Of a stretch of DNA of 64,000 nucleotides, positions 4,124 to 57,037 are shown piece after piece. The notes beneath the pieces were generated by a model. That model ran no database searches, was not told where the DNA came from, and was given only the letters and a program-made list of their open reading frames with translations. Origin of the DNA: Akkermansia muciniphila (GTDB taxonomy: Bacteria; Verrucomicrobiota; Verrucomicrobiia; Verrucomicrobiales; DEV007). Each line of letters starts with the position of its first letter. Position 1 is the stretch's first letter. A program made the position numbers and the translations under genes. The stretch covers positions 1-64,000 of the forward strand of contig CAMCXS010000025.1 in assembly GCA_945883495.1 (NCBI GenBank), in the 5' to 3' direction.

Positions 4124-4206
4124 GCAGATTCAAGCTGAGAAAAGGCGTTCCCAATTGGAGCTGAGGTTACCAAGCGGCGGGTTGCGCGCCGAAACAACTC
4201 AGTTTC

Positions 4207-7200
4207 TCACTTGGGGAGCGTAACGATCCACTCCTTCAACAGCGCCACGGCCTCGACATCCGTTTCCCGGGTGCCCACCAACGGCATGCGCAGAAAGCCA
4301 TCGCTGGCGGTCATGCGCGTGAGGATTTGGCTCCGCACGGGATCACCGGGGGCGATGATGCGACGTGCGGTGTCGCCACCGTGATTGATGACGAGTCCAT
4401 TGATCATCCCGGCGCGATCCAGGGGAATCTCTGGGCGCAGATTCCATGGCGTCGGAGAAAGGCCGCCCGGCTGATGGCAGTTCGCGCAATTCACGGCCAG
4501 GTAGCCGCGAGCGCGATCGGCGGCGGCGGCTCTGGAGTCATCGCGCGCCGCGTGTTTCGGCGCCTCCGCCGCTTTCGGCACGCCTTGGAGCAAGCCGTGA
4601 GCGCTCCACAGATCCAGCTGATTGCCCGGAAACCCTCTGACGACGGATTCCCGATTGAGCTGCCGCGTAGAGAAAGACAGAGCGTATCCGGCCGTCGCAT
4701 TGTGGCACATGGCACATTCCGCCTGAGCCGGAAAACGCCACGTCTGATTCCGCGCCCCACCCGGCTCACGCACGGAGATTTGGATCTCTTCGCCTGCCTC
4801 GGGAACCAGGGTGGCTTCCGTGCCCGCTTCGTTCCAACGGTAGCTCACTCCGTAGGCGCCCTCCTCCGTTTTCACCAGCAGCCGAGTCTCGATCCGGCGT
4901 GCCGTTTGCGCATTGCCGCGTTCGGTTTCGAGATCGAGATGTTGCACCCAGATCATGCCGGTGGGGAAGCTCCAATTCCCATCGCGTGAACCTTCCACGC
5001 GGCTGTCGTTCCCTGGCAGAACAAGCCAATGCCGCGCCGATGCGTGATCATTCCAAGCGGGATGATTCACCGTGTATGGCAGCACCGAGGGCGCTGGAAT
5101 CAGGTCCTGCGTCCGGGTAAAAAGCCGCGTGTCGCTCAGTTTCTGAGGGAATCCCGTCCCTGGCTTGCCCGCGACGAGCCGGAGGATTTTCCCAGCCGTG
5201 TAATCGGCCGCCAAGAGATCCCCATTCGCCGGATCCGCGTGAAAGGCGGACAGTCCACTCTTGCCCGTGAGCCGGGCCACATGGGGCGGCTGCCCCTCGC
5301 GGCGCCGCAAGGACCAGAGATTGCCCGAGGCGTAGTCGGCGAACAGGTAGGTGCCCGCCAACTCCGGAAACCGGGTGCCGCGATACACCAGCCCGCCAGT
5401 GATCGAGTTTCCCTGTCCGGTCCCGGAACCGTGGGGATAGGCATGGAGTGGCGGCAGTCCCTGAAAGCCGCTTTCCGCCTGCGTTGGCTTTTTGGGCCCC
5501 GAATTCATCCCTTCCCGGTAGGGCCAGCCGTAGTTTCCCCCGCGTGTCACCACGTTCACTTCCTCCCAACTGCCACCGCCCACGTCCGCGACCCAGAGTT
5601 CGCCGGTCTTGCCATCAAAATGCATCTGCCAAGGATTGCGCATGCCGATGGCCCAAAATTCCGTGCGCACCTGTTCCAACGTAGTGATCGCCACGCCATT
5701 GAGCATGCCGTCCCAGGATCCGCCGTCGCGCTGATGGACGAACGGATTGTCCGCCGGAATCGCGTAACGCGCCTTGCCCTGATGCAACGGGACGGCAGAA
5801 TGCGGGTTCGGCTCCAGGCTGCCTGAGCGGCGATCCACATCGATGCGAAGGATCCCGGAGAAGAAATTCTTGGTGAGATTCTGGCCGTTCCCATACTGAT
5901 CATTTTGGCCACCTTCATCCCCAAGCGAGATGTAGAGATAGCCGTCGGGCCCGAAGCGTAAGCAGGAGCCTTGGTGGTTGTACGCTTGGTCGTGCTGTTC
6001 GATGAAAACGGCCTCGGAATTCGCGTCCGCCTGCATCGGATCATCCGCCTTCGTCAAGAAACGCGCGACCCGCTCATACCAGCGACCATCCGGCTTTTTG
6101 ACCGAGTAAAACACGAAAAACTGCCGATTCTCCGCGTAGCGTGGATGAAAGGCCAGGCCCAGAATGCCCTGTTCGTTCCCCGTGGCGAGGCTTTCTCCGC
6201 GAGCCTCGAGCATCGGCTTGAGATCGAGAAACACGCGGGCTTCCGGCTTGGCCGCGGCGAGATCAGGCACGACCTGAATGACCCCGGCCTTCTTTTCGAG
6301 AACGAAGAGGCGATTCGGCTGACCGGCCATCGATTCCAGCCCGCAAGGCTCGCCAAAGCTCAGCCCCGGCAAGGCATCCGTCCATTCATAAGCCGTCCCG
6401 GGCGGAGCCGCCGGAACGTTCAGCGTGGCGTTGGCCAATCGGAGCTGCTTGGACACGCTGATGGACACCTTGGCCGTTCCGCTGTCCCCCTCTTTCGTGG
6501 AGATCCGGTAGACGAATGAGTCCGATTCGAACCCCGCACCGTTGTGGGTGTATTCGATGTTCCCCCGGTCGACCACCCTCACCGTCCCTCGCGTCGGTTG
6601 GGTTTCGATCACCAGCGTCGCGGGATCGATCTTCCCTGCCCGGGTGTAGTCATTGGACAGCACGGGAATACGCTCCTGCCCCCCGGGATGGAGGATGGCC
6701 TTATCGCCGTTGACCACCAGCCGGCTCGGCGCAGGAGCAGGCGCGGCAGCGAGCACGGGTTGAACTTTCACCACGGCGGGATGCGCCAGGGCTTGCCAAC
6801 ACGCTTCGAAGCGTTTGGCGTCCGGCTCGCCATCCGTGACCACGAAGCGAAAGCGCGCGACGTAGGGTTTGCCTGGTTCGATCGCAAACCCGCCGAGTTG
6901 TTGCGGGACGTAAGAGAAATACGGCATGTTCGGATGCAAGCGGACCGGTTGTGGCGCGCGGAAGTTTTCCGGATGTCCGAGCACCGCCGTGCCCGCCTGG
7001 GCACCGCCCACCTTGCCACCGAGGTAGCACCACCGGGCCCGGGAACCGTTGCCCTCTTTCCGGTCGGAAATCCCCTCGGAGGTCAGAAAGCGGGCCGCCT
7101 CGCCTGGACCATTCCACTCGGCCGCGCCGCGAATCCCAAACCCGCCATAATGATATTCCGGCAATCCCAGCGCGTCAGGGCCTGCGCAATTCTGCTCGAT

Positions 7201-7929
7201 CTGGAGCTCAAACAGCCGCATCTTCGGCCCGGCGGCAAAACACGTCACTTTCCAACGGGAGGTCAGCACCGGCACGGGCTCCCGCGCCGAGCCGCCCAAA
7301 TCGGACATGCGCAATTCCGCCTCCAACCCTCCATGGACCGGCCCGGACCAAGTGCGGTGGACCTTCACCAGTTGCTCGGCGCCGGTTCCCTTGTGCATGT
7401 TCCAGAAGTCGGGCTCACGGCCTTGGAACGACGTCTTGGTCCAGGGAGCCCAAATGCCATGGTGGTGCGGATGGTTCGAAGGATAATCATCCGTCACCAA
7501 CACGCCTGCTGGCGAGAAGACCGGATGCAGGTAGCCAGCCCGTCGAATCGCGTCCGGCACGTCCTTTCGGGGCACGATCGGGAATCCCAAAACCGGCCGC
7601 CCCTCCACCGTGACATCAATAGCGTCCGTCCGCGTCGAAACCTTGACGGCCTCCGCGGCGGGGGAACCGGCTTCCAAGCGCCACTCCAATGCCTTGCCCG
7701 CCGGAACCCAATCGAGAATGGCCGTGCCGGAGCCATCTGACTCCCGTTGCACCGCCAGGGAGCGAGAACCATCGCGCAGCCAGACCAAGCCCGGCTCATT
7801 GGGAGGCAAGGGCACACGCAGCACCAATCCCGCACGATCCACCGGAGCGGCCTCTACCGAGACCCGGTAGTCCGCAACCAATGAAAAGGGGAAGAGTCCA
7901 ATCGAAACGATGAAGAGGAGGATTCGCAC
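4207..7929 (-). CDS. PmoA-like + PQQ sugar dehydrogenase + diheme cytochrome fusion
   Basis: 1,240 aa with a GTG start and a signal peptide (RILLFIVSIGLFPFSLVA). Residues about 20-390 form a PmoA/DUF6807 domain with the histidine-rich SNHPHHHGIW motif. Residues about 400-490 are a cadherin-like beta linker (VLSNDYTR). Residues about 510-900 are a glucose/sorbosone-dehydrogenase propeller (ILGLAFHPRYAENRQFFVFY, DLWVADVGGGSWEEVN-type motifs). Residues about 940-1240 are an SO2930-type diheme region with CAMCH (C1072, C1075, H1076) and CANCH (C1148, C1151, H1152). Such fusions are typical of PVC-phylum periplasmic sugar oxidation. The likely role is oxidation of a sugar or alcohol with internal electron transfer; the substrate is unknown. 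It is a paralogue of the gene at the left edge. Confidence 0.9.
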   Translation of the reverse strand: MRILLFIVSIGLFPFSLVADYRVSVEAAPVDRAGLVLRVPLPPNEPGLVWLRDGSRSLAVQRESDGSGTAILDWVPAGKALEWRLEAGSPAAEAVKVSTRTDAIDVTVEGRPVLGFPIVPRKDVPDAIRRAGYLHPVFSPAGVLVTDDYPSNHPHHHGIWAPWTKTSFQGREPDFWNMHKGTGAEQLVKVHRTWSGPVHGGLEAELRMSDLGGSAREPVPVLTSRWKVTCFAAGPKMRLFELQIEQNCAGPDALGLPEYHYGGFGIRGAAEWNGPGEAARFLTSEGISDRKEGNGSRARWCYLGGKVGGAQAGTAVLGHPENFRAPQPVRLHPNMPYFSYVPQQLGGFAIEPGKPYVARFRFVVTDGEPDAKRFEACWQALAHPAVVKVQPVLAAAPAPAPSRLVVNGDKAILHPGGQERIPVLSNDYTRAGKIDPATLVIETQPTRGTVRVVDRGNIEYTHNGAGFESDSFVYRISTKEGDSGTAKVSISVSKQLRLANATLNVPAAPPGTAYEWTDALPGLSFGEPCGLESMAGQPNRLFVLEKKAGVIQVVPDLAAAKPEARVFLDLKPMLEARGESLATGNEQGILGLAFHPRYAENRQFFVFYSVKKPDGRWYERVARFLTKADDPMQADANSEAVFIEQHDQAYNHQGSCLRFGPDGYLYISLGDEGGQNDQYGNGQNLTKNFFSGILRIDVDRRSGSLEPNPHSAVPLHQGKARYAIPADNPFVHQRDGGSWDGMLNGVAITTLEQVRTEFWAIGMRNPWQMHFDGKTGELWVADVGGGSWEEVNVVTRGGNYGWPYREGMNSGPKKPTQAESGFQGLPPLHAYPHGSGTGQGNSITGGLVYRGTRFPELAGTYLFADYASGNLWSLRRREGQPPHVARLTGKSGLSAFHADPANGDLLAADYTAGKILRLVAGKPGTGFPQKLSDTRLFTRTQDLIPAPSVLPYTVNHPAWNDHASARHWLVLPGNDSRVEGSRDGNWSFPTGMIWVQHLDLETERGNAQTARRIETRLLVKTEEGAYGVSYRWNEAGTEATLVPEAGEEIQISVREPGGARNQTWRFPAQAECAMCHNATAGYALSFSTRQLNRESVVRGFPGNQLDLWSAHGLLQGVPKAAEAPKHAARDDSRAAAADRARGYLAVNCANCHQPGGLSPTPWNLRPEIPLDRAGMINGLVINHGGDTARRIIAPGDPVRSQILTRMTASDGFLRMPLVGTRETDVEAVALLKEWIVTLPK

Positions 7930-8042
7930 GCGGGATCTTAGAAGCGACCAACTAAAGCGTCCGATCCAGAAAGCAAGTCATTTGGGGGGGCGTCGCGATT
8001 CTTCAGCTACATGGACCAGAAGCGATTCCCCTCTTGGTCGGG

Positions 8043-8828
8043 CTAGCAGTCTCCTCGAACAACCACCGGAGTCAGCTTGACGTGAGCATGTCCCAAAAAT
8101 GGCGCCAATCCCGACTCCGCCCCACGGGATTCCAGGTGATCAAGCGGTGTATCCTGGAGACATGATCTCTGCCGGTCTCGGTCGCCACCGGTTAACTCGT
8201 GCAAAACCCGCTTGGCGGAGCGTCGGGACGGAGGCCCGTGACTTCTTGCATCGAGCCGGTGGGCCGCCAAGCAGGGATCGAATCCAAGTTCTGCCCGAAG
8301 CGCTTCAAGAATTCTGGCCTCCGTTGCATCACGAGGAGCGAAACCGTTAAGGATCCAGGCCTCAATCATCGCGACGGCGAACGCCACGACGATGACAAGG
8401 GGCTCGGGTTTGCCATTTTCCTCATCGACGGCCTGAGCCACTCCTTGGATCCGCCCTTCCCGCTTGTCCACGTCCCGAACCAGGATAAGCGCGTCCACGC
8501 TCGCTTTCCCGGATTGACGGAGACGCCGCGCCAGATGAATCGCTTTCCTGGTAATCGCGGCATCCTCTTTCTGCGGTTGGCCGACTGGGTGCCCCAGGTA
8601 GCGGATTCCGGTCTTGCCTGCCAGGTCTTTGACCGAACGCCACGGAGTAAAGGTAGTGTTGGGTTCGAGTCCAGACCACCGGCGAAGCGCATCCAAACCG
8701 ACATCCTTCACCCAGTCCGGGCCGCGTTCGCGAAACACGCGGTCAGCAAGTTCCTGGGCGACCCAAGAGTCGGTCGGCCCCTCGCACAGAATGACGAGCT
8801 GAATAAGGTTCGGCGGGTTGTCATCCAT
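8043..8828 (-). CDS. TOPRIM-like (DUF4276/OLD-type) protein paired with an AAA ATPase
   Basis: 261 aa from the ATG at 8828. The frame stays open to a TTG at 8846, but the ATG forms an ATGGATGA overlap with the upstream ATPase stop, which implies translational coupling. Visible motifs fit a TOPRIM-like metal site: VILCEGPTD near the N-terminus (conserved Glu) and ILVRDVDKR in the middle (D-x-D), followed by AMIEAWIL. The C-terminus ends with GLAPFLGHAHVKLTPVV. AAA ATPase + TOPRIM pairs (OLD, PARIS and related) are known nuclease or effector modules of phage defence. Assignment to a named system is not justified. Alternative: a RloB- or DUF4276-type protein outside defence. Confidence 0.7.
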   Translation of the reverse strand: MDDNPPNLIQLVILCEGPTDSWVAQELADRVFRERGPDWVKDVGLDALRRWSGLEPNTTFTPWRSVKDLAGKTGIRYLGHPVGQPQKEDAAITRKAIHLARRLRQSGKASVDALILVRDVDKREGRIQGVAQAVDEENGKPEPLVIVVAFAVAMIEAWILNGFAPRDATEARILEALRAELGFDPCLAAHRLDARSHGPPSRRSAKRVLHELTGGDRDRQRSCLQDTPLDHLESRGAESGLAPFLGHAHVKLTPVVVRGDC

Positions 8829-9840
8829 GGGGAACAGGATCGGCAACCCATGTCTCGCCTTCGGCGCTCCAGAACTCTCCCGTCGTGAGCACTTCCAAAG
8901 CGCGCTCCGCGTCCGGGTGATCGGACAAGCGTTTGGCCGAGGTGTAACCCTCCGCGTCAGGCTGGAAGACCCAGACTTCCTCGGGCTCTAATTGATCGAT
9001 GATGTAGGGAGAGTGGGTGGTCATGATGACCTGGGCGTTCGGTTTCTGCCCCACCAGTTGGCGCAGAGCGGTGATCAACGCGCGTTGGGCCGCTGGATGA
9101 AGCCCGTGGTCAATGTCATCGATCAACACGGTCCCTTCGGTCATGATGAGTTCCGTGAGAATCGCAAGACAGATGAGCGTCCCTTCGCTGGCTTGGTCGG
9201 CCGGACGTCCCGCGAGCCACAATTGGTCGGCGCCAATGGTGTCGTTCACAGCCAGGGAAGACACTCCCCCGGGGAGATTGCGGAATCCATTTCTCCGAAT
9301 TTCCGCCACTGCCCTTCCATCAGCGGCTTCGCGAAGTTTGACCCGAGGAACCTGCGGTTCCGGTGCTCCGCGAAGCGCAGGAATAATCTGGAGGGCCGTG
9401 TGCAGGAGGTCGTCCACCATGGTTCGGTTGGTGGTCAGCAGGTAGCTGATGCAGGATGCCAACCCCCAACCATCCTCCGCCATCCGGGGAGGGGTTTCGA
9501 GCATGATAGAGACCGCGCCAATTTGGTCGCCGTCCAGGCGGAGAAACCGATTTGGAACACGCGCAAGCTCGGCAATTGGCGGTAGCTGAGCGGAATTGCT
9601 GCTGAGCACGAACCCGTTCGGCTTGTGGTCCGAAGCAACCGCGATCTCGACAGTGGCGCCTTTGGGAAACGACGGCGTGACTTTACCAGTCTTGACATAC
9701 TCACCGGCTTGGGAGACGGCCCTCAGCAAATTCGTCTTCCCGCTCGCATTCGGCCCAACGATCGCGACAAGCGGTCCCAGCCCCTCCAAGAGCGTGTCAC
9801 GGTGAATCCGGAAATCCCGGAGATGGATCTCGGTGATCAT
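8821..9840 (-). CDS. AAA (AAA_21/SMC-like) ATPase
   Basis: 339 aa, ATG start. Starts MITEIHLRDFRIHRDT, as in RecF/SMC-like ATPases. Walker A is GPNASGKT (residues 29-36), an ABC-like signature DQASEGTL sits near 215-222, Walker B is TVLIDDID (237-244), and TTHSPY (274-279) provides the H-loop histidine. It lacks a long coiled coil, so it belongs with the compact AAA_21 family that works with a separate effector. Its 3' end overlaps the TOPRIM-like gene by 8 bp, and the two would be made together. It probably acts as an ATP-driven sensor or clamp for its partner. No regulatory motif upstream is convincing. Confidence 0.85.
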   Translation of the reverse strand: MITEIHLRDFRIHRDTLLEGLGPLVAIVGPNASGKTNLLRAVSQAGEYVKTGKVTPSFPKGATVEIAVASDHKPNGFVLSSNSAQLPPIAELARVPNRFLRLDGDQIGAVSIMLETPPRMAEDGWGLASCISYLLTTNRTMVDDLLHTALQIIPALRGAPEPQVPRVKLREAADGRAVAEIRRNGFRNLPGGVSSLAVNDTIGADQLWLAGRPADQASEGTLICLAILTELIMTEGTVLIDDIDHGLHPAAQRALITALRQLVGQKPNAQVIMTTHSPYIIDQLEPEEVWVFQPDAEGYTSAKRLSDHPDAERALEVLTTGEFWSAEGETWVADPVPHG

Positions 9841-10163
9841 CTGGGCGTATCATAACCCAAAATTCCAGAGGTGGACAATAATCCTGCAGCTCTTCCGAAA
9901 GGACGGGCAAGCCTGTCTGACCTGAAGCTAGAGGCCCTCCACCTAGCAAGATCTTGGTACCAGGCTCGAATGGCGCGGGGTTAACCTCCGTAAGGTGGAC
10001 ATTTTGTCCGCCTACCCCGTGTCCATGATCGCTACGGACGGGCAATCATACCCATCCTACATCAGCGTCACCCTGGCGCTCATCGTGAATCTCGTGCCAT
10101 TCATACCAGGCTCCAGGAGCACCTGTCGTCCGGCCCCAAGAACACCCCGCCCCCAGATGAATC
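9841..10163. other. Intergenic stretch, one weak hairpin
   Basis: No convincing gene. A 7-bp imperfect stem-loop (GGTGGAC / GTCCGCC around ATTTT) lies near 9995-10013 and could end transcription between the all-alpha gene at 10164-11111 and the ATPase pair. Otherwise nothing was recognised. Confidence 0.4.
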
Positions 10164-11111
10164 TCAGCCGGCAAGGGAGCTTGGTTCGGAGTCCGATTCG
10201 GCGGTGTTGGTCTTGGCAGCGGCGTGAGCCCCGAACTTGCTGGAACTACGGGCCGTCGATGCGCGGGTGCCGATTTGCGGAGTCGTGGCTGTCCCCTCTT
10301 TCGCCTTGGCTTTGCGGGAGCGGGTTTCCTGAGTTTTGGAGAAACTCGCCATTTTGGCAGTGATCTGGGCGCAGCCCTCCAGAAGTTGCAGGTAAGGCTC
10401 CCGGCCCTTCTTGGCGTGCTGCCTCATGTTGGCAAAGACTTGATCCAATGCGTTCGTTGCCTCTTGCCGCAATTGGCGAAGGCTCGGTGCGATCGGCGCG
10501 GGCACGGTCTTTGCGTCGATTTCGGGAGCGTCAGCCGCTTCGGGGTCATCCACTTCCCGGCGGCTCGACTTCAGCAAGAGATCTTGGTACGCAGCATTCG
10601 TCGTTTGCAGGAGCCGGAAATGCCGCATCGCTCCAATGGCTTCCAGAGCCGCCCGGATCGGCTTGGGCTCGCAGTCTTCCAAGAAGAAACGTAATGCCGT
10701 GCTCGTCCCCGGCCGGCTTTTGCCGCCGACACTGCCTTTCCGCTTGGTCACCAACTCATCCATGATCCGCGCCGCCTCGCGCGTCTCCTTCGCCAAATCG
10801 CGATCCGGGTCATCCAAGACAAACTTCGCAGACCGGCCAATATAATTAAAATAAGCACACCGGTCGCGGTGCAACTCTTTGAACTGCTCCGTATAACGTC
10901 CCTTCGGTTCCACCCGGATCCGGAGAGAAAGCTGCGTGATCCAATCAAACCCATCCGCCGCAATCTCGCGGTTGAACTCATCAGACAACGGCAATCCCTT
11001 TTTGGGATCGAGCAATAGATTCGTAAGCTGCAGTCCGTAATCGAGAAAGATCTCGTGGCTGGTGCCATGGGCGGAAAACTCAGGAACTTCAATGAGCGAA
11101 TGAGACGTCAT
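10164..11111 (-). CDS. All-alpha hypothetical protein, DUF6261-like, with basic Ser/Thr/Ala-rich tail
   Basis: 315 aa, ATG start (MTSHSLIEVPEF). The body (about 1-255) is predicted helical. The pattern HRDRCAYFNYIGRS, then a REAARIMDEL segment, a TSTALRFFLED segment and a final TTNAAYQDLL segment resembles DUF6261 proteins of Bacteroidota; this is recognition by pattern only. The last ~60 residues are low-complexity and basic (RSRKAKAKEG then many S, T and A), suggesting nucleic-acid contact or a disordered tail. There are no catalytic motifs. A degenerate ~41-bp repeat array lies about 150 bp upstream of its start, an arrangement repeated for the gene at 56144-57037. Function unknown. Confidence 0.75.
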   Translation of the reverse strand: MTSHSLIEVPEFSAHGTSHEIFLDYGLQLTNLLLDPKKGLPLSDEFNREIAADGFDWITQLSLRIRVEPKGRYTEQFKELHRDRCAYFNYIGRSAKFVLDDPDRDLAKETREAARIMDELVTKRKGSVGGKSRPGTSTALRFFLEDCEPKPIRAALEAIGAMRHFRLLQTTNAAYQDLLLKSSRREVDDPEAADAPEIDAKTVPAPIAPSLRQLRQEATNALDQVFANMRQHAKKGREPYLQLLEGCAQITAKMASFSKTQETRSRKAKAKEGTATTPQIGTRASTARSSSKFGAHAAAKTNTAESDSEPSSLAG

Positions 11112-11266
11112 GACGAAAAGAGTGATGGCTGATGATGATATTCAACAGAGCTTTCGGCCAAGAATCCTAACAGAGCCGCCTTTTGCAAGCGGAAAATGGT
11201 GACGAATTTTCGACGGCAAGCAAAACCTTAGGGGTTTCCTAGTTGTGTCAGGCCCAAACAGCGTTT

Positions 11267-11560
11267 GCCGCTGACGTGTTCGCCTGGATTCGTCGCCGGC
11301 AAACTCTGCCGCGGGCTTTCCCCATCCGGAATCGCGGAAACCCGATCTCGCCGCGCAGTTCTCCGGCCAAAAACCTCCCACAACACGTCTTGCCGCAGAC
11401 AAATCCGGGCGGAAACACCTGCGGCAGAGTTTGCCGCAGACATTCCCAGCCCGCAAACGTCGAAACCTCCCGCCGCCGCGCACAAAATCGCTCGAAAAGC
11501 TCCAAAGCACGCACTGCCGCAGCCGAAAACGCTTGGCGATCTCTGCGGTCAAGGCGCTTC
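11267..11560. repeat. Array A: degenerate tandem repeat, ~41-42 bp period, ~7 units
   Basis: The anchor GCCGC recurs at 11267, 11308, 11350, 11392, 11433, 11475 and 11516, giving spacings of 41, 42, 42, 41, 42 and 41. On the minus strand each unit reads GCGGC(A/G), a variable stretch, a mid motif close to GGAGGTTTC, and another variable stretch. One unit boundary forms a perfect 8-bp stem, CTGCGGCA-GAGTT-TGCCGCAG. The units differ far more from each other than those of an ordinary minisatellite, while their period is kept. The array lies upstream of the DUF6261-like gene that ends at 10164. Confidence 0.75.
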
Positions 11561-11632
11561 GCGGGTTGAAGTTCAAAGTTGAAGTTTAAGGCGCGGCAGC
11601 GCAATCGGCCTCTTCCCGCTGAACTCTTCCCA

Positions 11633-11725
11633 GGCCCAACGGGCCGGGACAAGATAGCCCAGGGCAAAGCGAGGAACGAGCGGCGCCCTGGGTTCCCCAC
11701 GCCGTGGTCCAAGCCCTGAAAGGGC
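11633..11725. repeat. REP-like element with three consecutive hairpins
   Basis: Three short palindromes follow one another: GGCCC-AAC-GGGCC (11633-11645), CCCAGGGC (11658-11665) pairing with GCCCTGGG (11685-11692), and GCCCT-GAA-AGGGC (11713-11725). This arrangement resembles dispersed REP-like hairpin elements common in Bacteroidota, Planctomycetota and Verrucomicrobiota. No transposase remnant was seen next to it. Confidence 0.6.
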
Positions 11726-12090
11726 GAGACAATGGCCGCCGAACTCATTCGATCCGGAGGGCAGTCCTCCCGGGCCTGTTGTCCATGATCCAGCTGATGA
11801 CCGCGCCCGTGGAGCGGTGCAGGAGCCCCGCCTTCCTGGCAAGGCATGGCACGAGCAGAATCGGGCCGTGGGCCTTGGCGATTCCCATCTCCCCGAGGCG
11901 TTGCGCCGCAAGTACCCGGGCGCACCGCGTGAGTACCACTCGGGACCGCGACAACCAAGAGTGAAATGGAGGCGACAAGGATTGGGACGTTCAACGACCT
12001 GCATCGGCGAGCGGGAGACACCCTCCCGATGGGAAAATGCGTGTGCGGCGCTCCAATCGTGGCGTAGCTATAGATGGAGAGTGAAAGCGG

Positions 12091-12565
12091 ATGAAGGAAT
12101 CCATCTACATCGAGACAACGATTCCGAGTCTCTACGTCGCTCGGCCATCCCCTAGGCTGATTGAGGCCGGGAGGCAGCAGTTGACGCGAATCTGGTGGGA
12201 GAACCATCGGCAGGAGTTTGACTTGGTCTGTTCCCAATCGGTGCTGGATGAATGCGGCCGGGGAGATGCCGAATTGGCGCGCCTGCGCCTGGAGCTGCTA
12301 GGCGGCGTCCCACTCCTCGATCGAGGAGGTGGCGCTGGCCGCAGACGCTTTGCTTCGTAGCGGCATCCTTCCGGCGAAGGCGGGAGAGGATGCCATTCAC
12401 ATCGCGGCGGCTTCCGTCCACGGCATCAACTACCTTCTCACTTGGAATTGCAAACACATCGCGAATCCCCGAATATGGAGGAGGATCGGCGAGTGTTTTC
12501 GTGGGTTAGGGCACACCATGTCGATCATCTGCACCCCGGAGGATCTAATAGGTGATGAAAACTGA
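12091..12565 (+). pseudogene. PIN-domain (VapC-like) toxin, frameshifted
   Basis: The first frame encodes MKESIYIETTIPSLYVA through GGVPLLD, then shifts near 12317-12325. The second frame continues with EEVALAADALLRSG, EDAIHIAAASVHGINYLLTWN and ends in ICTPEDLIGDEN. Joined, they give a full-length PIN domain with the expected acidic residues (E in IETT, E in DECG, D in EDAIHIA) and the LLTWNCKHIAN motif. The shift lies in CTCCTCGATCGAGGAG, a palindrome prone to slippage. The RNase toxin is therefore probably inactive unless this is a sequencing error or programmed frameshift. Confidence 0.8.
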
Positions 12566-12767
12566 AGAAACCATAATGCAAAGTGTCGTGGAGCAAGTCC
12601 GCTCGATCAAGGAGGCGATCGCCGAGGAACACGGTTACGATGTCCACGCAATGATTGCCTCCGCGAGAGCGCGGCAGGAGCGGTCTGGCCGCATCATCAT
12701 TCGATCGGAAGCTGGGAATCGAACCAGCGGCTGGACTGCGACCGCTGATCGCGGCGAGTCAGCCTGA
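12555..12767 (+). CDS. Small partner of PIN toxin (antitoxin-like)
   Basis: 70 aa from the ATG at 12555 (a GTG lies one codon upstream). It overlaps the end of the PIN frame, as usual for these pairs. The sequence MKTEETIMQSVVEQVRSIKEAIAEEHGYDV then AMIASARARQERSGR is the standard short helical protein found after this PIN subfamily. The last ~16 residues are encoded inside the attC site (12718-12776), so the native C-terminus may have been replaced on cassette formation. It presumably binds the toxin, which is broken here. Confidence 0.65.
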   Translation: MKTEETIMQSVVEQVRSIKEAIAEEHGYDVHAMIASARARQERSGRIIIRSEAGNRTSGWTATADRGESA

Positions 12768-12776
12768 GCGTTCGGC
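12718..12776 (+). other. Integron attC site 1 (59 bp)
   Basis: The outer core sites are ATCGAAC (12718-12724) and GTTCGGC (12770-12776), sharing five complementary bases including AAC/GTT. The inner pair is GGCTGGAC (12729-12736) and GTCAGCC (12758-12764), which are complementary except for one extra G, the extrahelical base expected in the L'' arm. The centre carries the hairpin CCGC-TGATC-GCGG. A gene starts 28 bp after the site on the same strand. Size, symmetry and polarity all match an attC site. Confidence 0.75.
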
Positions 12777-12803
12777 CTAAAGAAATAACGATCAGATCCA
12801 CCG

Positions 12804-13067
12804 ATGGGTGACGAAAGTCTCGTGAGCGTGTTGGTCGTCGCAATCGTGCGCGTGCTCTCGGCCCTGTTCGGGCAGGGCGCGGATACGGGGCCGGCTTCGT
12901 GGACAGCACGACTTGGCGGATGGATCATTGAGCGGGGGTCATTTGGAAGGTTCACCTATGACAGAAATCGCGTCGTCCACGTCGTGCCGTCGCTGATTCT
13001 AGGGGTGACCGTCATCGCCTCAATAGGAGTCGTAATTGCCAAGTCGTTTGCGACTTTCGTAAGGTGA
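12804..13067 (+). CDS. Small two-segment membrane protein of the cassette
   Basis: 87 aa, ATG start 28 bp after attC site 1. Two hydrophobic stretches (LVSVLVVAIVRVLSALF near the N-terminus and VVPSLILGVTVIASIGVVIA near the C-terminus) flank a polar loop. No family was recognised. The position directly after an attC core site is typical of a cassette-borne gene. The frame is short, so coding status is likely but not certain. Confidence 0.5.
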   Translation: MGDESLVSVLVVAIVRVLSALFGQGADTGPASWTARLGGWIIERGSFGRFTYDRNRVVHVVPSLILGVTVIASIGVVIAKSFATFVR

Positions 13068-13127
13068 CATGGAGCAAACCACCCCAAACACAAGAGAATC
13101 GAGTAGAAACGAACACTTATCACTCGA

Positions 13128-13155
13128 GTCCAAGGGTGGACGATTGTCCTTGGAC
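13128..13155. promoter_or_regulatory. Perfect 8-bp inverted repeat upstream of hicB
   Basis: GTCCAAGG (13128-13135) and CCTTGGAC (13148-13155) are exact inverted copies separated by 12 bp, 38 bp before the hicB start. It could be a HicB operator or a terminator for the upstream small membrane gene; there is no T-tract, which favours an operator. Confidence 0.4.
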
Positions 13156-13193
13156 GGCTTGACACCTCCGTCGTTTTTGCCCAACTTGAATCT

Positions 13194-13400
13194 ATGACTT
13201 TGACAGCCGTTTTGACTCCCGCTGAAGAGGGCGGCTTCGTCGCCTTCAACCCCGAAACTGGAACCACGACTCAAGGAGAGTCAGTGCACGAAGCAATCGA
13301 CAATCTCCGCGAGGCTACCGAACTTTACTTGGAAGAGTTTCCTCTCGTGCAGCCGGGTCGTTCTCTGTTGACTACTTTCGAAGTGATTGCCCATGCCTAA
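13194..13400 (+). CDS. hicB: HicB family antitoxin
   Basis: 68 aa. The sequence MTLTAVLTPAEEGGFVAFNP then TTQGESVHEAIDNLREATELYLEEF is the partial RNase H-fold of HicB antitoxins, without a C-terminal DNA-binding domain. Its stop overlaps the hicA start (ATGCCTAA). In the family HicB neutralises the HicA mRNA interferase; here HicA is interrupted by a stop codon. The pair lies in the same attC-bounded cassette as the small membrane protein gene. Confidence 0.85.
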   Translation: MTLTAVLTPAEEGGFVAFNPETGTTTQGESVHEAIDNLREATELYLEEFPLVQPGRSLLTTFEVIAHA

Positions 13401-13608
13401 GATGCCTCACGTTTCCGGCCCAGAAGCCGTGGGTGCATTGCAGCGATTGGGCTTCTAGGTCGCGAGGCAGAAACGTAGTCATATCGTCATGCGCCGTGGC
13501 TCCGCTGGCTGTGTCGTTCCGAATCATCGCGAGATCAAGACCGGAGCTCTCATAGGCATTCTTCGGCAGGCTGGGGTTTCCGTGGAGGAATTCATTGCGG
13601 CCCTCTGA
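13393..13608 (+). pseudogene. hicA: HicA toxin with internal amber codon
   Basis: The frame from the ATG at 13393 reads MPKMPHVSGPEAVGALQRLGF, then TAG (13456-13458, codon 22), then VARQKRSHIVMRRG and a normal C-terminus ending EEFIAAL at 13606. All HicA landmarks remain, including the SH of the active-site region, so one substitution (probably GAG to TAG) has inactivated an otherwise intact 71-aa toxin. The start overlaps hicB by 8 bp. Confidence 0.85.
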
Positions 13609-13646
13609 AGCGAAAATGTCCGGCCCATCGCTACATGACCAAGGAG

Positions 13647-13706
13647 GCCGAACCAGGCGCAGCAGGACCGACCGCTGATCGCGGCGTCTGCGCTCTGACG
13701 TTCGGC
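13647..13706 (+). other. Integron attC site 2 (60 bp)
   Basis: The outer sites GCCGAAC (13647-13653) and GTTCGGC (13700-13706) are exact inverted copies. The inner arms GCGCAG and CTGCGC pair with a few unpaired bases, and the centre again holds GACCGCTGATCGCGGCG, identical to attC site 1. A gene starts 20 bp after the site on the same strand. The shared centre of the two sites suggests one integron platform with a typical attC family. Confidence 0.8.
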
Positions 13707-13725
13707 GTGAAGGAACCAGAAAGAA

Positions 13726-14013
13726 ATGAAGCGACATTTCTCCTCACTTGGAGCGGTCCTGGGTCTCTACGTGGGAGCCTACCTGATCATTAGAATCACA
13801 GGAGGGATTACTCATTGGGACGGCCGAGGGGAACCAGAAGGGCATACAGTCAGAGCTCGACCCGAGGAATGGATTGAAATCACCACAGCAATGGCAACGA
13901 GTTCCAGATCAGATTTCCTACAGGTCGACGCCTGGTTCGGACGTTTTTGGCGCCAGGCTGTCTGCGCGTCGAATGTCAGTGGGCACGAAAGCCTTGCTTT
14001 GCTGCGTACCTAA
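13726..14013 (+). CDS. Hypothetical small protein with N-terminal membrane segment, cassette-borne
   Basis: 95 aa, ATG start 20 bp after attC site 2. The N-terminus MKRHFSSLGAVLGLYVGAYLI is a membrane segment or signal anchor. The remainder (RPEEWIEITTAMATSS and on) matches no family I know. The last third has unusual composition (Cys and Trp in RFWRQAVCASNVSG) and may be read-through into non-coding DNA. No third attC site was found after it. Confidence 0.45.
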   Translation: MKRHFSSLGAVLGLYVGAYLIIRITGGITHWDGRGEPEGHTVRARPEEWIEITTAMATSSRSDFLQVDAWFGRFWRQAVCASNVSGHESLALLRT

Positions 14014-14053
14014 ATTTCAGGCTGGTTCGAAAAACCGAACGGAGTTCCGTGGC

Positions 14054-23047: not shown

Positions 23048-23061
23048 AAACCCAACACCTC

Positions 23062-23086
23062 GTAGGCCGGACATTCCTGTCTGGCC
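23062..23086. repeat. REP element, single 25-bp arm
   Basis: Starts GTAGGCCGGACATTCC and ends GTCTGGCC. It is identical to the left arm at 27628-27652 and differs by one base from the copy at 23678-23702. It lies just upstream of the DUF1080 gene start. Confidence 0.85.
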
Positions 23087-23194
23087 AATGAAAATCCACA
23101 GCGGAGTCCGACGTCACGCGGACGCCCAATCAACAGGTGACGATTCCGTCACGTGCGGCAAGCTGCACATGGCTTCCATGCAGCAGAATTGCGA

Positions 23195-23417
23195 GTGCGG
23201 ATGTCCGCACGTGCGATTCCGGAGCAAATCTGAGAATGCGGATTCCCGCACGTGCTCACTCAGACGCAAAACGCCCAGTGCGGACATCCGCACTGGTCAC
23301 TCAGAGCCAAAATGGCAAGTGCGGACACCCGCACGTGTCGAGTCTGTCACAAATGGGCATGTGCGTACATCCGCATCTGCCTCCGCAGGCCGGAATGGGC
23401 ACGTGCGGATCTCCGCA
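23195..23417. repeat. Array B: six imperfect palindromes spaced 41-43 bp
   Basis: Palindromic cores of the type GTGCGGA-NN-TCCGCAC start at 23195, 23237, 23278, 23319, 23361 and 23403. The best copy (23275-23296) has 10-bp perfect arms, CCAGTGCGGA and TCCGCACTGG. Between cores there is a variable stretch of about 10-12 bp and then a second, weaker motif close to CAAAATGGGCA. Two conserved motifs with variable segments between them at constant period suggest a structured repeat rather than a decayed gene. Confidence 0.75.
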
Positions 23418-23503
23418 TCTGTCTGCAATGGAGTCCGGCCCCGACCGCTTCGGGCCAAGTGCCGGGATGGAGCCTCAGATCGCGTTCTTCATTCCTTCCC
23501 TCC

Positions 23504-23571: not shown

Positions 23572-23677
23572 CACTGTTCCAACCGTCTTTTCAACCGCAC
23601 CCGCCGGGTGCCTTCGGCCGTTCCGTTCAGCCTACCAGCCCCGGCGGGGTCCTTTCGCTTTGCCGAATGGCGCTTCC

Positions 23678-23749
23678 GTAGGCCGGAGATTCCTGTCTGG
23701 CCAATCAACATCCACGACGTTCATGGCCGGACAAGCATGTCCGGCCTAC
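23678..23749. repeat. REP inverted pair
   Basis: The left arm (23678-23702) starts GTAGGCCGGAGATTCC. The right arm (23725-23749) ends GTCCGGCCTAC and is an imperfect inverted copy, 22 bp away. The pair can form a long stem-loop, as in bacterial interspersed mosaic elements. Confidence 0.85.
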
Positions 23750-52824: not shown

Positions 52825-55464
52825 TCACATCTCCCCAATCATCTCCACCAGCTTCCGCTCCACCACGTTGAAGGCATCGGCGGGCCGCCGATCGTTGAAG
52901 CGGACCGGTTTGCCGTCGGGGATGATGGCTTGAAGGACATTTAGCTCGCTGCGCTCCCAGGCGGGACAATCCTCCAGCAGCACGGAGACGATCCGCAGCT
53001 TGCCTTCCTTCTGCCGTTCCAAAGCGCGTTTCATTTCGACGCCACGAATGTATTTCGAGGCGAAGAACAGCGTGCTGATGAGGCACAGCATCACGTCGCA
53101 GCTCTCCAGTTCCGCCTTGATCGCCTCGTCCCACTTCTGTCCAGGCTGAATCCGCCGGTCCGTCCAGGAGGAAATCAGTTTGTCACTTTCCAGCACCGCC
53201 AAGTTCCGGCTGCGGAAGAGGTCAAACATGTCCGTATCCTCGTGGGCATAGCTGATAAATACCTTCAGCCGCTTGCCTTCCTCCTTGCGGGAGGTTTCCG
53301 AGCTGATCCGGTCAAGCTCGGATTTTTGATTGATGATCTCCGTCCCCTCGTCGGTGATGATCATGGAGGGTTTGCCGCGCTGCTCGTCCTTGAGCAGGGC
53401 ATCGACCCGTTGGTATTTTCCCGGAAATTCCCGGACTTCGATCCATTCCGTCGGTTCCAATCCGCCAAACTGGGCGTTGAGGTGGGCGAAGTGATGCCGG
53501 ATGACTTTGGCGATCCGTTCCTGAGCATCGGCATCTCCGGCGATCGCGACGTCGATCCGCTGCTCCGCGCTATCCGCCAAGACCAACGCCCGGCCGCCGT
53601 CGGTTTCCAGGATCACGCCGTAGCGCCATCGCGGTTGATTCTGGCTCAGGGGATAGGTGCGGGTGATGAAGCGGGGGATGAGGCCTTCTGGGAGGACGGT
53701 GTATTCATACCGCAGCCGCAGGAGATCCCGCCGTTCGCTCCGCCAATCGCCCAGGTTTTGGACCGGGTTTTCTGGGAGAAGATCCGGGACCAGGAGGACA
53801 TCCGGACGGCCGGTAACGGGGAAGCAGAGCTCGAACTTCCGCATCAGCCCCAGGAGATAGGCCACTTCTTCCTCCTTGGCGCCATCCAGCGCGGCGGCGG
53901 CTTCCGCCTGCGTCAGGGTACCATCGCACTCCGGTCCCTGCTTCAGACGCAGGAGACGGTAGATGTTTTGGGTGACCCAGTGCGGATTGAGGACCGCGAT
54001 CTCCTTCAGGTCATCGTCCCCGCTGAAATGGAGCAGAATCCCGAGCTGGTGCAAGATCCGGGCCAGACTGAGCTGGAGATCGGCGTCGGCTTCCCCTTGG
54101 GCGCTGCATTCCTGGCGGAACGCGTCCAAGGAAAGGTAATCCGCCGTCATCCCGGAGAAGCGTTCCTTGGCCTCCCACCAAGCCAGTGGGAATTTTTGCA
54201 GGACCTCGGGGATGGAATTGATCGCGGCCTGGATCTCCCGGTCCAAGTCCACCAATCCGCGCCGGGTCTGGCAATCCGTCTGCAAAATGGCCCGGATCGC
54301 CGGGTATTTCGCGCGCAGGGCCACCTCGTTCACGGAAAAGGGAAATTCGTCGTATTTGTTCAGGCAGATGATCACCGGGGAAGCCTTCCCAAAGCCCGAG
54401 ATGAGCTTGAGCCAGTATTCCGCATCCTGGTTCTGCGTATTCATCCGGCCTTCGATCACCAGGAGGTAGACGCTCCGCTCCGTGAGGAAGAATCGATGGG
54501 TGGCATGGGTGATGGTCTGGCCCGCGAAATCCCAGACATGGACGGTCACGTCGCCAGCCGAGGCTTCGAGGCGGCCGGGGCTGACCTCGATATCGATCCC
54601 TGGAGTTTCCTTCTTGTTGGGATCGAAGGGGCGATCAAAGAGAGCGTCCTTGAGGCAACTCTTCCCAGCCTTGCCCCGGCCCAGGAGGAGAAGCTTCACT
54701 TCATTGAGCGGCCGCGCTCCGGCCATGATGCCGAAGTAGTAGTCGAGGATGGACTGGGGATTGGCTGTCTCTCTCTTTTCCCAGAAAACCTCAGACATGG
54801 TCGGGCCGAGGACTTCTGCGGAGAGGTAGAGCCCTGGATTGCCGTGAAGATGCAGCCGCTTCAATCCATCCTTCGTTCGAAAAGATTCAGGAAGTTTAAT
54901 TAGTTGATTATCCGAAAGACCAATCTCTTGCAGTGATGCAAGCCGGCCCAGGCTCTCTGGGACGGCGCTCAGCTGGTTGCTCGAGAGATACAGCCTTTTC
55001 AGAGAGGCGAGCTGGCCCAAGCTCTCCGGAAGGGCCCTCAGTTGGTTGCTTGAGAGATACAACTTTTCCAACGAGGCGAGCTGGCCCAGGCTCTCGGGAA
55101 GATCGACCAGCTGGTTATCTTGAAGAAAAAGCTCCTTCATCGAGTCCAGCTGACCCAGGCTCTCTGGGAGGGCGACCAGCTGATTGTTCGAGAGATATAG
55201 CCTTTTCAGAGAGGCGAGCTGGCCCAGGTTCTCCGGGAGGGCGCTCAGCTGATTGCACCGAAGGTCAAGCTCTTGGAGCGAGGCGAGTTGACCCAAGCTT
55301 TCCGGGAGGGCGGTGAGGCCCAGATGGCTCAAGTCCAGCTCCGTGGCGCCCGTTCGCAGTGCCTCGGCGATGCGCCGTTCCGCTTCCGCGAATCCTTCCG
55401 CCGCTTGCTGGTCGTTGTCCAGTTCCGCTTTCTCAAAGTTGGTGTCACCGTCATTCCCGGCCAT
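52825..55464 (-). CDS. Roco protein: LRR-ROC-COR with C-terminal TIR domain
   Basis: 879 aa, ATG start. Residues about 40-225 carry eight 23-residue leucine-rich repeats (LPESLGQLASLKRLYLSSNQ type). The ROC GTPase (about 253-420) has the P-loop GRGKAGKS (262-269), DFAGQ (312-316) and NKYD (369-372). The COR region (about 430-640) includes LVPDLLPENP and a dimer-type beta segment. Residues about 733-860 form a TIR domain (KVFISYAHEDTDMF) with the candidate catalytic Glu810 in GVEMKRAL. This LRR sensor + GTPase switch + TIR effector order resembles NLR immune receptors and LRRK2. The ligand, and whether it acts in anti-phage defence, are unknown. Confidence 0.92.
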   Translation of the reverse strand: MAGNDGDTNFEKAELDNDQQAAEGFAEAERRIAEALRTGATELDLSHLGLTALPESLGQLASLQELDLRCNQLSALPENLGQLASLKRLYLSNNQLVALPESLGQLDSMKELFLQDNQLVDLPESLGQLASLEKLYLSSNQLRALPESLGQLASLKRLYLSSNQLSAVPESLGRLASLQEIGLSDNQLIKLPESFRTKDGLKRLHLHGNPGLYLSAEVLGPTMSEVFWEKRETANPQSILDYYFGIMAGARPLNEVKLLLLGRGKAGKSCLKDALFDRPFDPNKKETPGIDIEVSPGRLEASAGDVTVHVWDFAGQTITHATHRFFLTERSVYLLVIEGRMNTQNQDAEYWLKLISGFGKASPVIICLNKYDEFPFSVNEVALRAKYPAIRAILQTDCQTRRGLVDLDREIQAAINSIPEVLQKFPLAWWEAKERFSGMTADYLSLDAFRQECSAQGEADADLQLSLARILHQLGILLHFSGDDDLKEIAVLNPHWVTQNIYRLLRLKQGPECDGTLTQAEAAAALDGAKEEEVAYLLGLMRKFELCFPVTGRPDVLLVPDLLPENPVQNLGDWRSERRDLLRLRYEYTVLPEGLIPRFITRTYPLSQNQPRWRYGVILETDGGRALVLADSAEQRIDVAIAGDADAQERIAKVIRHHFAHLNAQFGGLEPTEWIEVREFPGKYQRVDALLKDEQRGKPSMIITDEGTEIINQKSELDRISSETSRKEEGKRLKVFISYAHEDTDMFDLFRSRNLAVLESDKLISSWTDRRIQPGQKWDEAIKAELESCDVMLCLISTLFFASKYIRGVEMKRALERQKEGKLRIVSVLLEDCPAWERSELNVLQAIIPDGKPVRFNDRRPADAFNVVERKLVEMIGEM

Positions 55465-56143
55465 GGCGGAATCCTAACGGGGGAGGCGTGGGGTGCAACG
55501 GGTTGTTTGGGATTTTGGACCTTTCCGCGACACGGCAAACTCGCCGGAGATATTCATCCAGCATTCCCCGGCTCTCGAAATTCGCCGGAGATATTCATTC
55601 ATCTTTCCCCGGCTCTCGAAACTCGCAGGGGATATTCATCCAACTTTCCCCGGCTCTCGAAACTCGCCGGAGATATTCATCCAACGTTCCCCGGCTCTCG
55701 AAACTCGCCGGAGATATTCATCCAACGTTCCCCGGCTCTCGAAACTCGCAGGAGATATTCATCCACCTTTCCCCGACTCTCGAAACTCGCCGGAGATCTT
55801 CATCCAACGTTCCCCGGCTCTTGAAACTCGCCGGAGATATTCATCCAACGTTCCCCGGCTCTCGAAACTCGCCGGAGACATTCATCCAACGTTCCCCGGC
55901 TCTTGAAACTCGCCGGAGATATTCATTCAGCTCTCCGTGACGCTGCAAATATACGGAAGATTCCCAATGAGCTCTGCGCTGCGGCTCGCATAAAAAGGAT
56001 CACACTTCAATCTCGCCGCTCATCAAGCGGGGAGCAGCAGATCTTGAGCATGTTTAGAAAAATGAGCAAAATTACTATACAGATCGTTTGAAGGATCTAA
56101 TATTTGGCACAGATTAATATTACAGCAACAAACGACAATCAAC
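55465..56143. other. Intergenic region dominated by 41-bp array
   Basis: 679 bp between two divergent genes: 76 bp of leader for the Roco gene, array C (55541-55935), then 208 bp with an AT-rich stretch (e.g. around 56060-56140) that may hold the promoter for the following gene. No gene is credible here. Confidence 0.7.
55541..55935. repeat. Array C: ten 41-bp tandem units
   Basis: The start TCGCCGGAGATATTCAT recurs at 55541, 55582, 55623, 55664, 55705, 55746, 55787, 55828, 55869 and 55910, exactly 41 bp each time. Each unit also contains TTCCCCGGCTCTCGAA. Variation is limited to a few positions, mainly the CAACGTT heptamer (also CAGCATT, CAACTTT, CACCTTT). Because 41 is not a multiple of 3, all three frames stay open in turn, so the translated repeats are an artefact. 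It sits between two divergent gene starts. Confidence 0.95.
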
Positions 56144-57037
56144 ATGGCCGTAAACGTCCTTTCCCGGAAATACGACGGAATCGAACCCATCACCACGAAG
56201 CTGGTCAGCGGGCTGGAGAAACATGGCGCCGCCATCGGCGTGATGCGGGATGCCGGTCCCATTGTGGAAGCCCTGGCCGCGGCGAAAGCGACGGAGGTCG
56301 CCTTCCATGAGAATGTCACCGCGCGCGTCACCGTGCTCACTCCGGCGCTGGAGGCGGCGGACGCCGAGGGGAAGGCGTTTTTAGGAGTCGCGACCAAAGT
56401 GTTCCGGGTCCATTTCGGGAACACTTGGAATCATCGCTGGACGGTCATTGGCCTCACCGGAAAATCGACCGCGATTCCAGACACGCGCGAAGGCCGCACC
56501 ACGCTGATCACGAACATCGCGGACTATCTGAAGAAGAACCCGCACCACTCCAATGCGGAGCTCAACGTGACGCTGAAACGCGCCGAGGCGATTTTGGCGG
56601 CGCTCAAGACCGCCACGGAAGCCGTGGCCGCGAACAAGCTGAACCAGCCCATCCTCAGTCAGGCCCGGACCCAGGCGATGAACCGGTTGCACCGCCGCAT
56701 CCGCGCCACCATCGCGGATCTCAAATCCGTTTTGGACGAGGAATCGCCCCTGTGGGAGACCTTCGGCTTGAACGCGCCGTATCGCGCCAGCCGCGAGGAA
56801 ATGAAGACGCGCGCCGAACGGACCAACGCCAAAGATCAACGCGCCGTGGAACGCGCCTTGGAGACCGCCGCGCGGGCCAAGCAGCGCGCCGACGAGAAAG
56901 CGGCCAAAGTCATCGCCAAGGCCAAGCGGAACACTCCGGCAGCCGCCACGGCGCTGACCCGGCAGACGGGCAGTGTGCCGATCACGCCGGTTACGGGAAC
57001 CGCGACGCCGGCTGGCGACGTCGAGCTGGCGCGTTGA
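56144..57037 (+). CDS. All-alpha hypothetical protein with basic Ala/Lys/Thr tail
   Basis: 297 aa, ATG start. No family recognised with certainty. The N-terminal part (SGLEKHGAAIGVMRDAGPIV) is helical, followed by a conserved-looking core FRVHFGNTWNHRWTVIGLTG and LITNIADYLKKNP, then long helices (RTQAMNRLHRRIRATIADLK). The tail (about 220-297) is rich in K, R, A, T, P, as in DNA- or RNA-binding proteins. Array C starts 603 bp and ends 208 bp before its start. The arrangement mirrors the gene at 10164-11111, which also has a basic tail and an upstream 41-bp array. Function unknown. Confidence 0.7.
   Translation: MAVNVLSRKYDGIEPITTKLVSGLEKHGAAIGVMRDAGPIVEALAAAKATEVAFHENVTARVTVLTPALEAADAEGKAFLGVATKVFRVHFGNTWNHRWTVIGLTGKSTAIPDTREGRTTLITNIADYLKKNPHHSNAELNVTLKRAEAILAALKTATEAVAANKLNQPILSQARTQAMNRLHRRIRATIADLKSVLDEESPLWETFGLNAPYRASREEMKTRAERTNAKDQRAVERALETAARAKQRADEKAAKVIAKAKRNTPAAATALTRQTGSVPITPVTGTATPAGDVELAR

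Follow-up and report, generated by a model that had tools for sequence, protein, structure and literature searches.

A DUF6261-family gene and its own 41-42-bp tandem array as a two-part cassette in Verrucomicrobiota and Bacteroidota

A degenerate array upstream of a DUF6261 gene

The stretch of DNA analysed here (64,000 nucleotides, hereafter the window) carries on its minus strand a gene of the DUF6261 family (PF19775), to our knowledge a family of unknown function, and, upstream of this gene, a degenerate tandem array (array A):

10164-11111, minus strand: gene for a 315-aa DUF6261-family protein (PF19775), the partner of array A; Pfam match, dN/dS of 0.14 against its closest paralog
11112-11240, minus strand: spacer between gene and array A with a promoter-like block (TTGC, 11-17 bp, TTAGNAT), a putative promoter from by-eye comparison
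11267-11560, minus strand: array A, about seven degenerate units of 41-42 bp with the half-site GCGGC (gene strand)

On the plus strand, GCCGC stands at 11267, 11308, 11350, 11392, 11433, 11475 and 11516, with spacings of 41, 42, 42, 41, 42 and 41 bp and an extra overlapping copy at 11472. The first-pass annotation had reported this sevenfold recurrence, which was confirmed. It had also held the period to be beyond chance, and Markov simulations never reached it: GCCGC runs at 40-43-bp spacing were at most three copies long in 5000 simulated sequences, against seven in array A, and no 5-mer exceeded three at this spacing in 1000 simulations of the array A region. The self-match at lag 41 upstream of the gene was 0.49, whereas 2000 simulations reached 0.47 at most; among real 600-bp stretches from the same genome it ranks in about the top 2%. 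Since the run exceeds all simulations and yet array A is absent from the output of a tandem repeat finder, we regard the array as real but degenerate. Used as a DNA query against its own genome, it returned short fragments and nothing longer. Two units retain a full dyad, CTGCGGCA-AACTC-TGCCGCAG and CGGCA-GAGTT-TGCCG. A second motif had been proposed for the middle of each unit; the consensus GGAGGTTTC.GGCCGG is indeed present, but it is looser than claimed, with the exact 9-mer GGAGGTTTC in only one of the seven units.

The partner protein matches PF19775 with 28.9 bits (E 1.3e-6; Pfam gathering cut-off 27) and thus belongs to the family, other copies of which score up to 155 bits; profile homology between the window-type group and the classical DUF6261 group is 98%. 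The array had been placed 156 bp upstream of an all-alpha gene. That distance is correct (from the start of the gene at 10164-11111 to 11267), but the all-alpha fold came from a low-confidence single-sequence model, the two such predictions having pLDDT values of 45 and 39 (the latter for this protein), too poor to use. Its closest paralog, on contig C17 of the source genome, is 68% identical in protein sequence, and by eye the C17 array has GCGG.AAACTC.GCCGC in common with array A. Among paralog pairs dN/dS was 0.51, 0.24, 0.23 and 0.14, the last being that of the array A gene, for which dS is saturated.

The source genome (6.46 Mb) holds 21 DUF6261-like genes, many of them close to contig ends. 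In the phylum the family is rare, with at least one gene in 5 of 388 sampled phylum genomes and in 9 of 387 sampled order genomes. A query with the classical subgroup against genome contigs yielded a single relative (on an Akkermansia-like contig, L081), and scans of viral contigs found none. Family searches of the proteins found no known DNA-binding domain, no Rep, ParA or ParB domain and no nuclease or transposase family; profile searches found no credible PDB relative, and there was no match to the PADLOC defence models. The proteins are near neutral or acidic, not basic.

DUF6261 genes are paired with arrays in two phyla

The flanks of DUF6261 genes were screened for any period from 15 to 129, and nearly all gave their strongest signal at 41 or 42 or at a multiple of these. 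We then scored the 600-bp flanks for a 40-43-bp period and counted an array as clear from a score of 0.55 upwards, a level that 1.65% of random stretches attain. In the source genome, a clear array lay within 600 bp of 15 of the 20 testable genes. Four more, on contigs C25 (array A), C17, C71 and C15, have a degenerate array, with scores of 0.46-0.52 that are individually weak, being reached by 2-3% of random stretches. The remaining gene, on contig C41, has no array in its flanks, and neither do its single-copy relatives in two congeneric genomes.

The pairing recurs outside the source genome. Clear arrays were found within 600 bp of 13 of 21 DUF6261 genes from other Verrucomicrobiota; two of the others have an array farther off, two are cut by a contig end and four have none. 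All five Bacteroidota genes examined (two from one strain of Parabacteroides distasonis, one from Prevotella nigrescens and two from human-gut contigs filed as phage) have an array directly upstream, and the P. nigrescens gene lies near the conjugation genes mobB, mobC and TraG. The position of the array relative to the gene follows two patterns. In most source-genome copies it lies 5' of the gene, beyond the promoter-like block, which by eye is common to the upstream-array paralogs; in the classical clade it follows the stop codon on the 3' side. A DUF6261 gene with its own tandem array of repeats of about 41-42 bp, many of them palindrome-bearing, is thus a two-part cassette in Verrucomicrobiota and Bacteroidota, bearing out the earlier view that array A should be read together with its neighbouring gene. 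No report of this pairing, and no mention of a linked repeat array for PF19775, was found in the open-access literature searched, where the one paper naming the family concerns an unrelated organism and subject.

Array A is best explained as one decayed copy of this cassette. The first-pass annotation had considered its variable contents unlike the decay of a homogeneous minisatellite, a view not supported by the arrays beside paralogous genes, which are 90-97% homogeneous; against these, array A is best read as a relaxed or decaying member rather than as fixed repeats with variable spacers. Its partner gene seems to remain under purifying selection.

From 14051 onwards the window aligns with two congeneric genomes at about 81%, whereas 4200-14050 has no match in either beyond short dispersed repeats, so that array A and its gene fall within DNA missing from both sisters. 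One sister species shows no clear cassettes: its 295 kb contained not a single 40-43-bp array, where the rate of the source genome would predict 4.2. The correlation of arrays with genes between genomes compares the source genome with this part of one sister only. Next to the array A cassette, an AAA_21 ATPase gene (8043-9840, minus strand; best PADLOC match AriA, 8.6e-28) overlaps a 267-aa gene without a family match, and together they look like a defence pair.

Gene and array duplicate together, and arrays also occur alone

Similarity between units ties together the arrays of close paralogs, namely those on C5 and C99, on C6, C22 and C39, and on C30 and C58. The block that C6 and C22 have in common extends from the array's outer edge to the stop codon of the gene; in C30 and C58 the common block starts shortly ahead of the gene and continues until the array ends. 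Array and DUF6261 gene are thus duplicated together as a block. Related arrays are also found without a gene, and the window holds two arrays that lack a DUF6261 neighbour:

23137-23440, no strand assigned: array B, no DUF6261 gene; period 41-42 bp, TGCGGA-NN-TCCGCA dyads
55537-55926, no strand assigned: array C, homogeneous 41-bp units (92%), between an LRR-Roc-COR-TIR gene and the gene at 56144
56144-57037, plus strand: gene for a 297-aa protein, possible partner of array C, 218 bp from it

Array B reproduces, at 84% identity and without the gene, the C76 array together with its outer flank; the C76 array itself lies 5' of the DUF6261 gene C76:26981. The gene-less arrays C1:59730 and C2:883 are related to the same C76 array, and similar ties join C3:1 with C52 and C23:65358 with C23:68118. 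A dispersed repeat, GTAGGCCGGA...TGTCTGGCC, with many copies in the genome, flanks array B in direct orientation at 23060-23086 and 23677-23702. By eye we had suspected that arrays are tied to the GGCCCAACGGGCC repeat, but the tie was borne out in just 2 of 27.

Roughly three quarters of the arrays detected have no DUF6261 gene next to them, and some adjoin non-homologous genes: a 228-aa family on C7 and C11, a 321-aa gene (C24:56762) and the 297-aa gene at array C. The 297-aa protein comes out as helical in a poor model, and no homology to DUF6261 was detected for it. The two members of the 228-aa family (C7:92874-93560 and C11:37742-38428) are 87% identical and have a 42-bp array at the 3' end, and about 24 C-terminal codons of this family remain alongside the gene-less array C11:43920. 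On its other side, array C adjoins a gene (52825-55464, minus strand) for an LRR-Roc-COR protein that ends in a TIR domain (ThsB-like, 3.4e-25).

A constant pitch of about four helical turns and often palindromic units

Among tandem arrays of any period from 15 to 120 in 1.97 Mb of the source genome, 28 of 65 have a period of 41-43 bp, one of them within a coding frame. Across arrays preselected for a period of 39-43 bp, 95% of 193 unit spacings were 41 or 42 bp. Unit sequences are wholly different between DUF6261 gene lineages, and the period stays constant at 41-42 bp. B-DNA has 10.4 bp per turn, and four turns correspond to 41.6 bp.

Of 52 array entries, which include one array entered twice and one that is coding, 25 had significant dyad symmetry (p<0.05, tested by shuffling columns). 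Many units hold a dyad of 6-10 bp around a centre of 0-5 bp. Those of Bacteroidota include TGCCGA-GGT-TCGGCA, ATTTAAA-CT-TTTAAAT and TTGATT-AC-AATCAA, and a fourth, TCTTAG-GC-CTAAGA, was seen by eye. Arm-to-arm covariation was absent across the dyad-significant arrays (excess -1.0, SD 5.8, z = -0.17), and arm mismatches comprised 117 G-T and 94 A-C, with no clear strand bias. Since the arms do not covary and many centres of 2 bp are too small for a loop, the sequences favour double-stranded DNA sites over RNA hairpins. In the window there was no match to an Rfam family and a tRNA scan found none. The processed RNAs of about 40 nt implied by the first-pass annotation thus appear doubtful, the more so as, in the upstream class, a conserved promoter-like block separates array from gene.

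A protein that may recognise its own array

We propose, with a probability of about one half, that each DUF6261 protein recognises its own cognate array as double-stranded DNA. Array A would then be the cis-acting DNA half of a cassette whose other half is the neighbouring DUF6261 gene, and the protein, probably as a dimer, would recognise the dyad of its own array. The pitch of about 41.5 bp, four turns at 10.4 bp, would align every site along the same face of the helix, which could let several dimers assemble into a single ordered nucleoprotein complex. Such a complex may act on the adjacent promoter, as autoregulation, and on related arrays in trans, although control of the promoter cannot be the whole story, since the array of the classical clade lies 3' of the gene. 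In array A unit homogeneity would have been lost, with pitch and half-sites persisting. Binding, dimerisation and action on the promoter and in trans are all inferred here. Several observations count against recognition of the array by the protein: the lack, in sequence searches, of a recognisable DNA-binding domain or PDB relative together with the neutral or acidic character of the proteins, the roughly half of arrays without a significant dyad, the one DUF6261 ortholog set without an array, and the fact that most arrays are not beside DUF6261 genes and some are beside unrelated ones.

Other explanations were weighed against this reading. The array could be the substrate of a mobilisation or amplification driven by DUF6261, akin to RAYT and REP, with array and gene forming a mobile cassette whose function is dispersal and not regulation. 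The sharing of units between gene-less and gene-linked arrays (array B, C1:59730 and C2:883 with C76, and the C52 and C23 ties), the duplication of array and gene as a block, and the conjugation genes near the Prevotella copy would all fit, but we consider it unlikely: the proteins have no HUH motif and no nuclease or transposase family, neither terminal repeats nor target duplications could be established, and a mobile repeat does not need a strict tandem pitch. Moreover, the Parabacteroides replicon yielded no second copy of its array, and the Prevotella replicon only more of the same array. That a different cellular protein, such as a nucleoid protein, binds the phased arrays, with DUF6261 and a few other small genes as mere associated cargo or clients, is in our judgement quite unlikely. 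The many arrays away from DUF6261, including those beside non-homologous genes, speak for such a binder; the persistence of the pairing across two phyla speaks against it, and a single shared DNA-binding protein would not explain unit sequences that are unrelated between lineages and track the DUF6261 lineage.

An array that is transcribed and acts as RNA, its structured or processed repeats of about 41 nt being bound by the DUF6261 protein, seems very unlikely. The palindromes could form hairpins, and the array of the classical clade, just 3' of its gene, may be part of the gene's transcript, but this is opposed by the arms without covariation, the balance of G-T and A-C mismatches, the 2-bp centres and the absence of an Rfam match. 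Lastly, array A might be an ordinary minisatellite that lies beside the gene by coincidence, as its degeneracy and its absence from the repeat finder output might suggest when it is taken by itself. This is hardly credible when 19 of 20 DUF6261 genes in its own genome have such an array, strong or weak, and the pairing recurs in distant genomes.

Comparison with described systems

RAYT genes adjoin their cognate extragenic palindromes (REP and REPIN), which have dispersed copies in trans, and come in many specificities (PMC3116915). DUF6261 genes are similarly flanked by palindromic repeats with related copies in trans, and their units likewise differ from lineage to lineage. However, DUF6261 is unrelated to the HUH transposases, no H-hydrophobic-H motif being present in any of 24 proteins, and its repeats form tandem arrays at a fixed 41-42-bp pitch that co-duplicate with the gene, whereas REP and REPIN are scattered inverted pairs. 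In the Rep-iteron, ParR-parC and ParB-parS systems, helically phased direct repeats adjoin the gene of the protein that binds them. DUF6261 genes likewise have helically phased direct repeats beside them, with binding predicted. Iteron, operator and centromere arrays usually occur once per replicon, in contrast to the up to 21 DUF6261 paralogs on one chromosome, each lineage with its specific unit; their pitch is one or two turns instead of four, and no Rep, ParA or ParB domain was found in the DUF6261 protein. Like CRISPR, the cassette places a periodic array beside a protein gene, but there is no invariant repeat with unique spacers, intact arrays being conserved along the whole unit (90-97% match), and no Cas genes were seen beside the array. 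Nor do the arms show the compensatory changes of a structured RNA array. Judged by sequence, the cassette is neither RAYT nor CRISPR, belongs to no Rfam or PADLOC family and resembles iteron and operator arrays in its anatomy.

Tentatively, and at somewhat less than even odds, DUF6261 cassettes may constitute a novel class of protein-array systems, self-contained and mutually orthogonal. Each of the small, diversifying proteins would be paired with a phased palindromic array of its own in cis and with additional ones in trans, on chromosomes and conjugative elements in two phyla, and the function, be it chromosome organisation, addiction-like persistence or mobilisation of arrays, would lie outside described systems. 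The pairing offers DUF6261, a family without known function that is annotated in Bacteroidota of the gut and mouth, a concrete and testable partner in its own DNA array, and it accounts for much of the non-coding tandem repeat content of at least one genome. The cassettes would offer a natural set of orthogonal protein-DNA pairs, binding being predicted, and a degenerate array missed by repeat finders can be recognised via its gene. The array-upstream DUF6261 group of the source genome also has a conserved C-terminal tripeptide, L-A/S/P/T-G/S/A, which could be a degradation tag or a mere relic.
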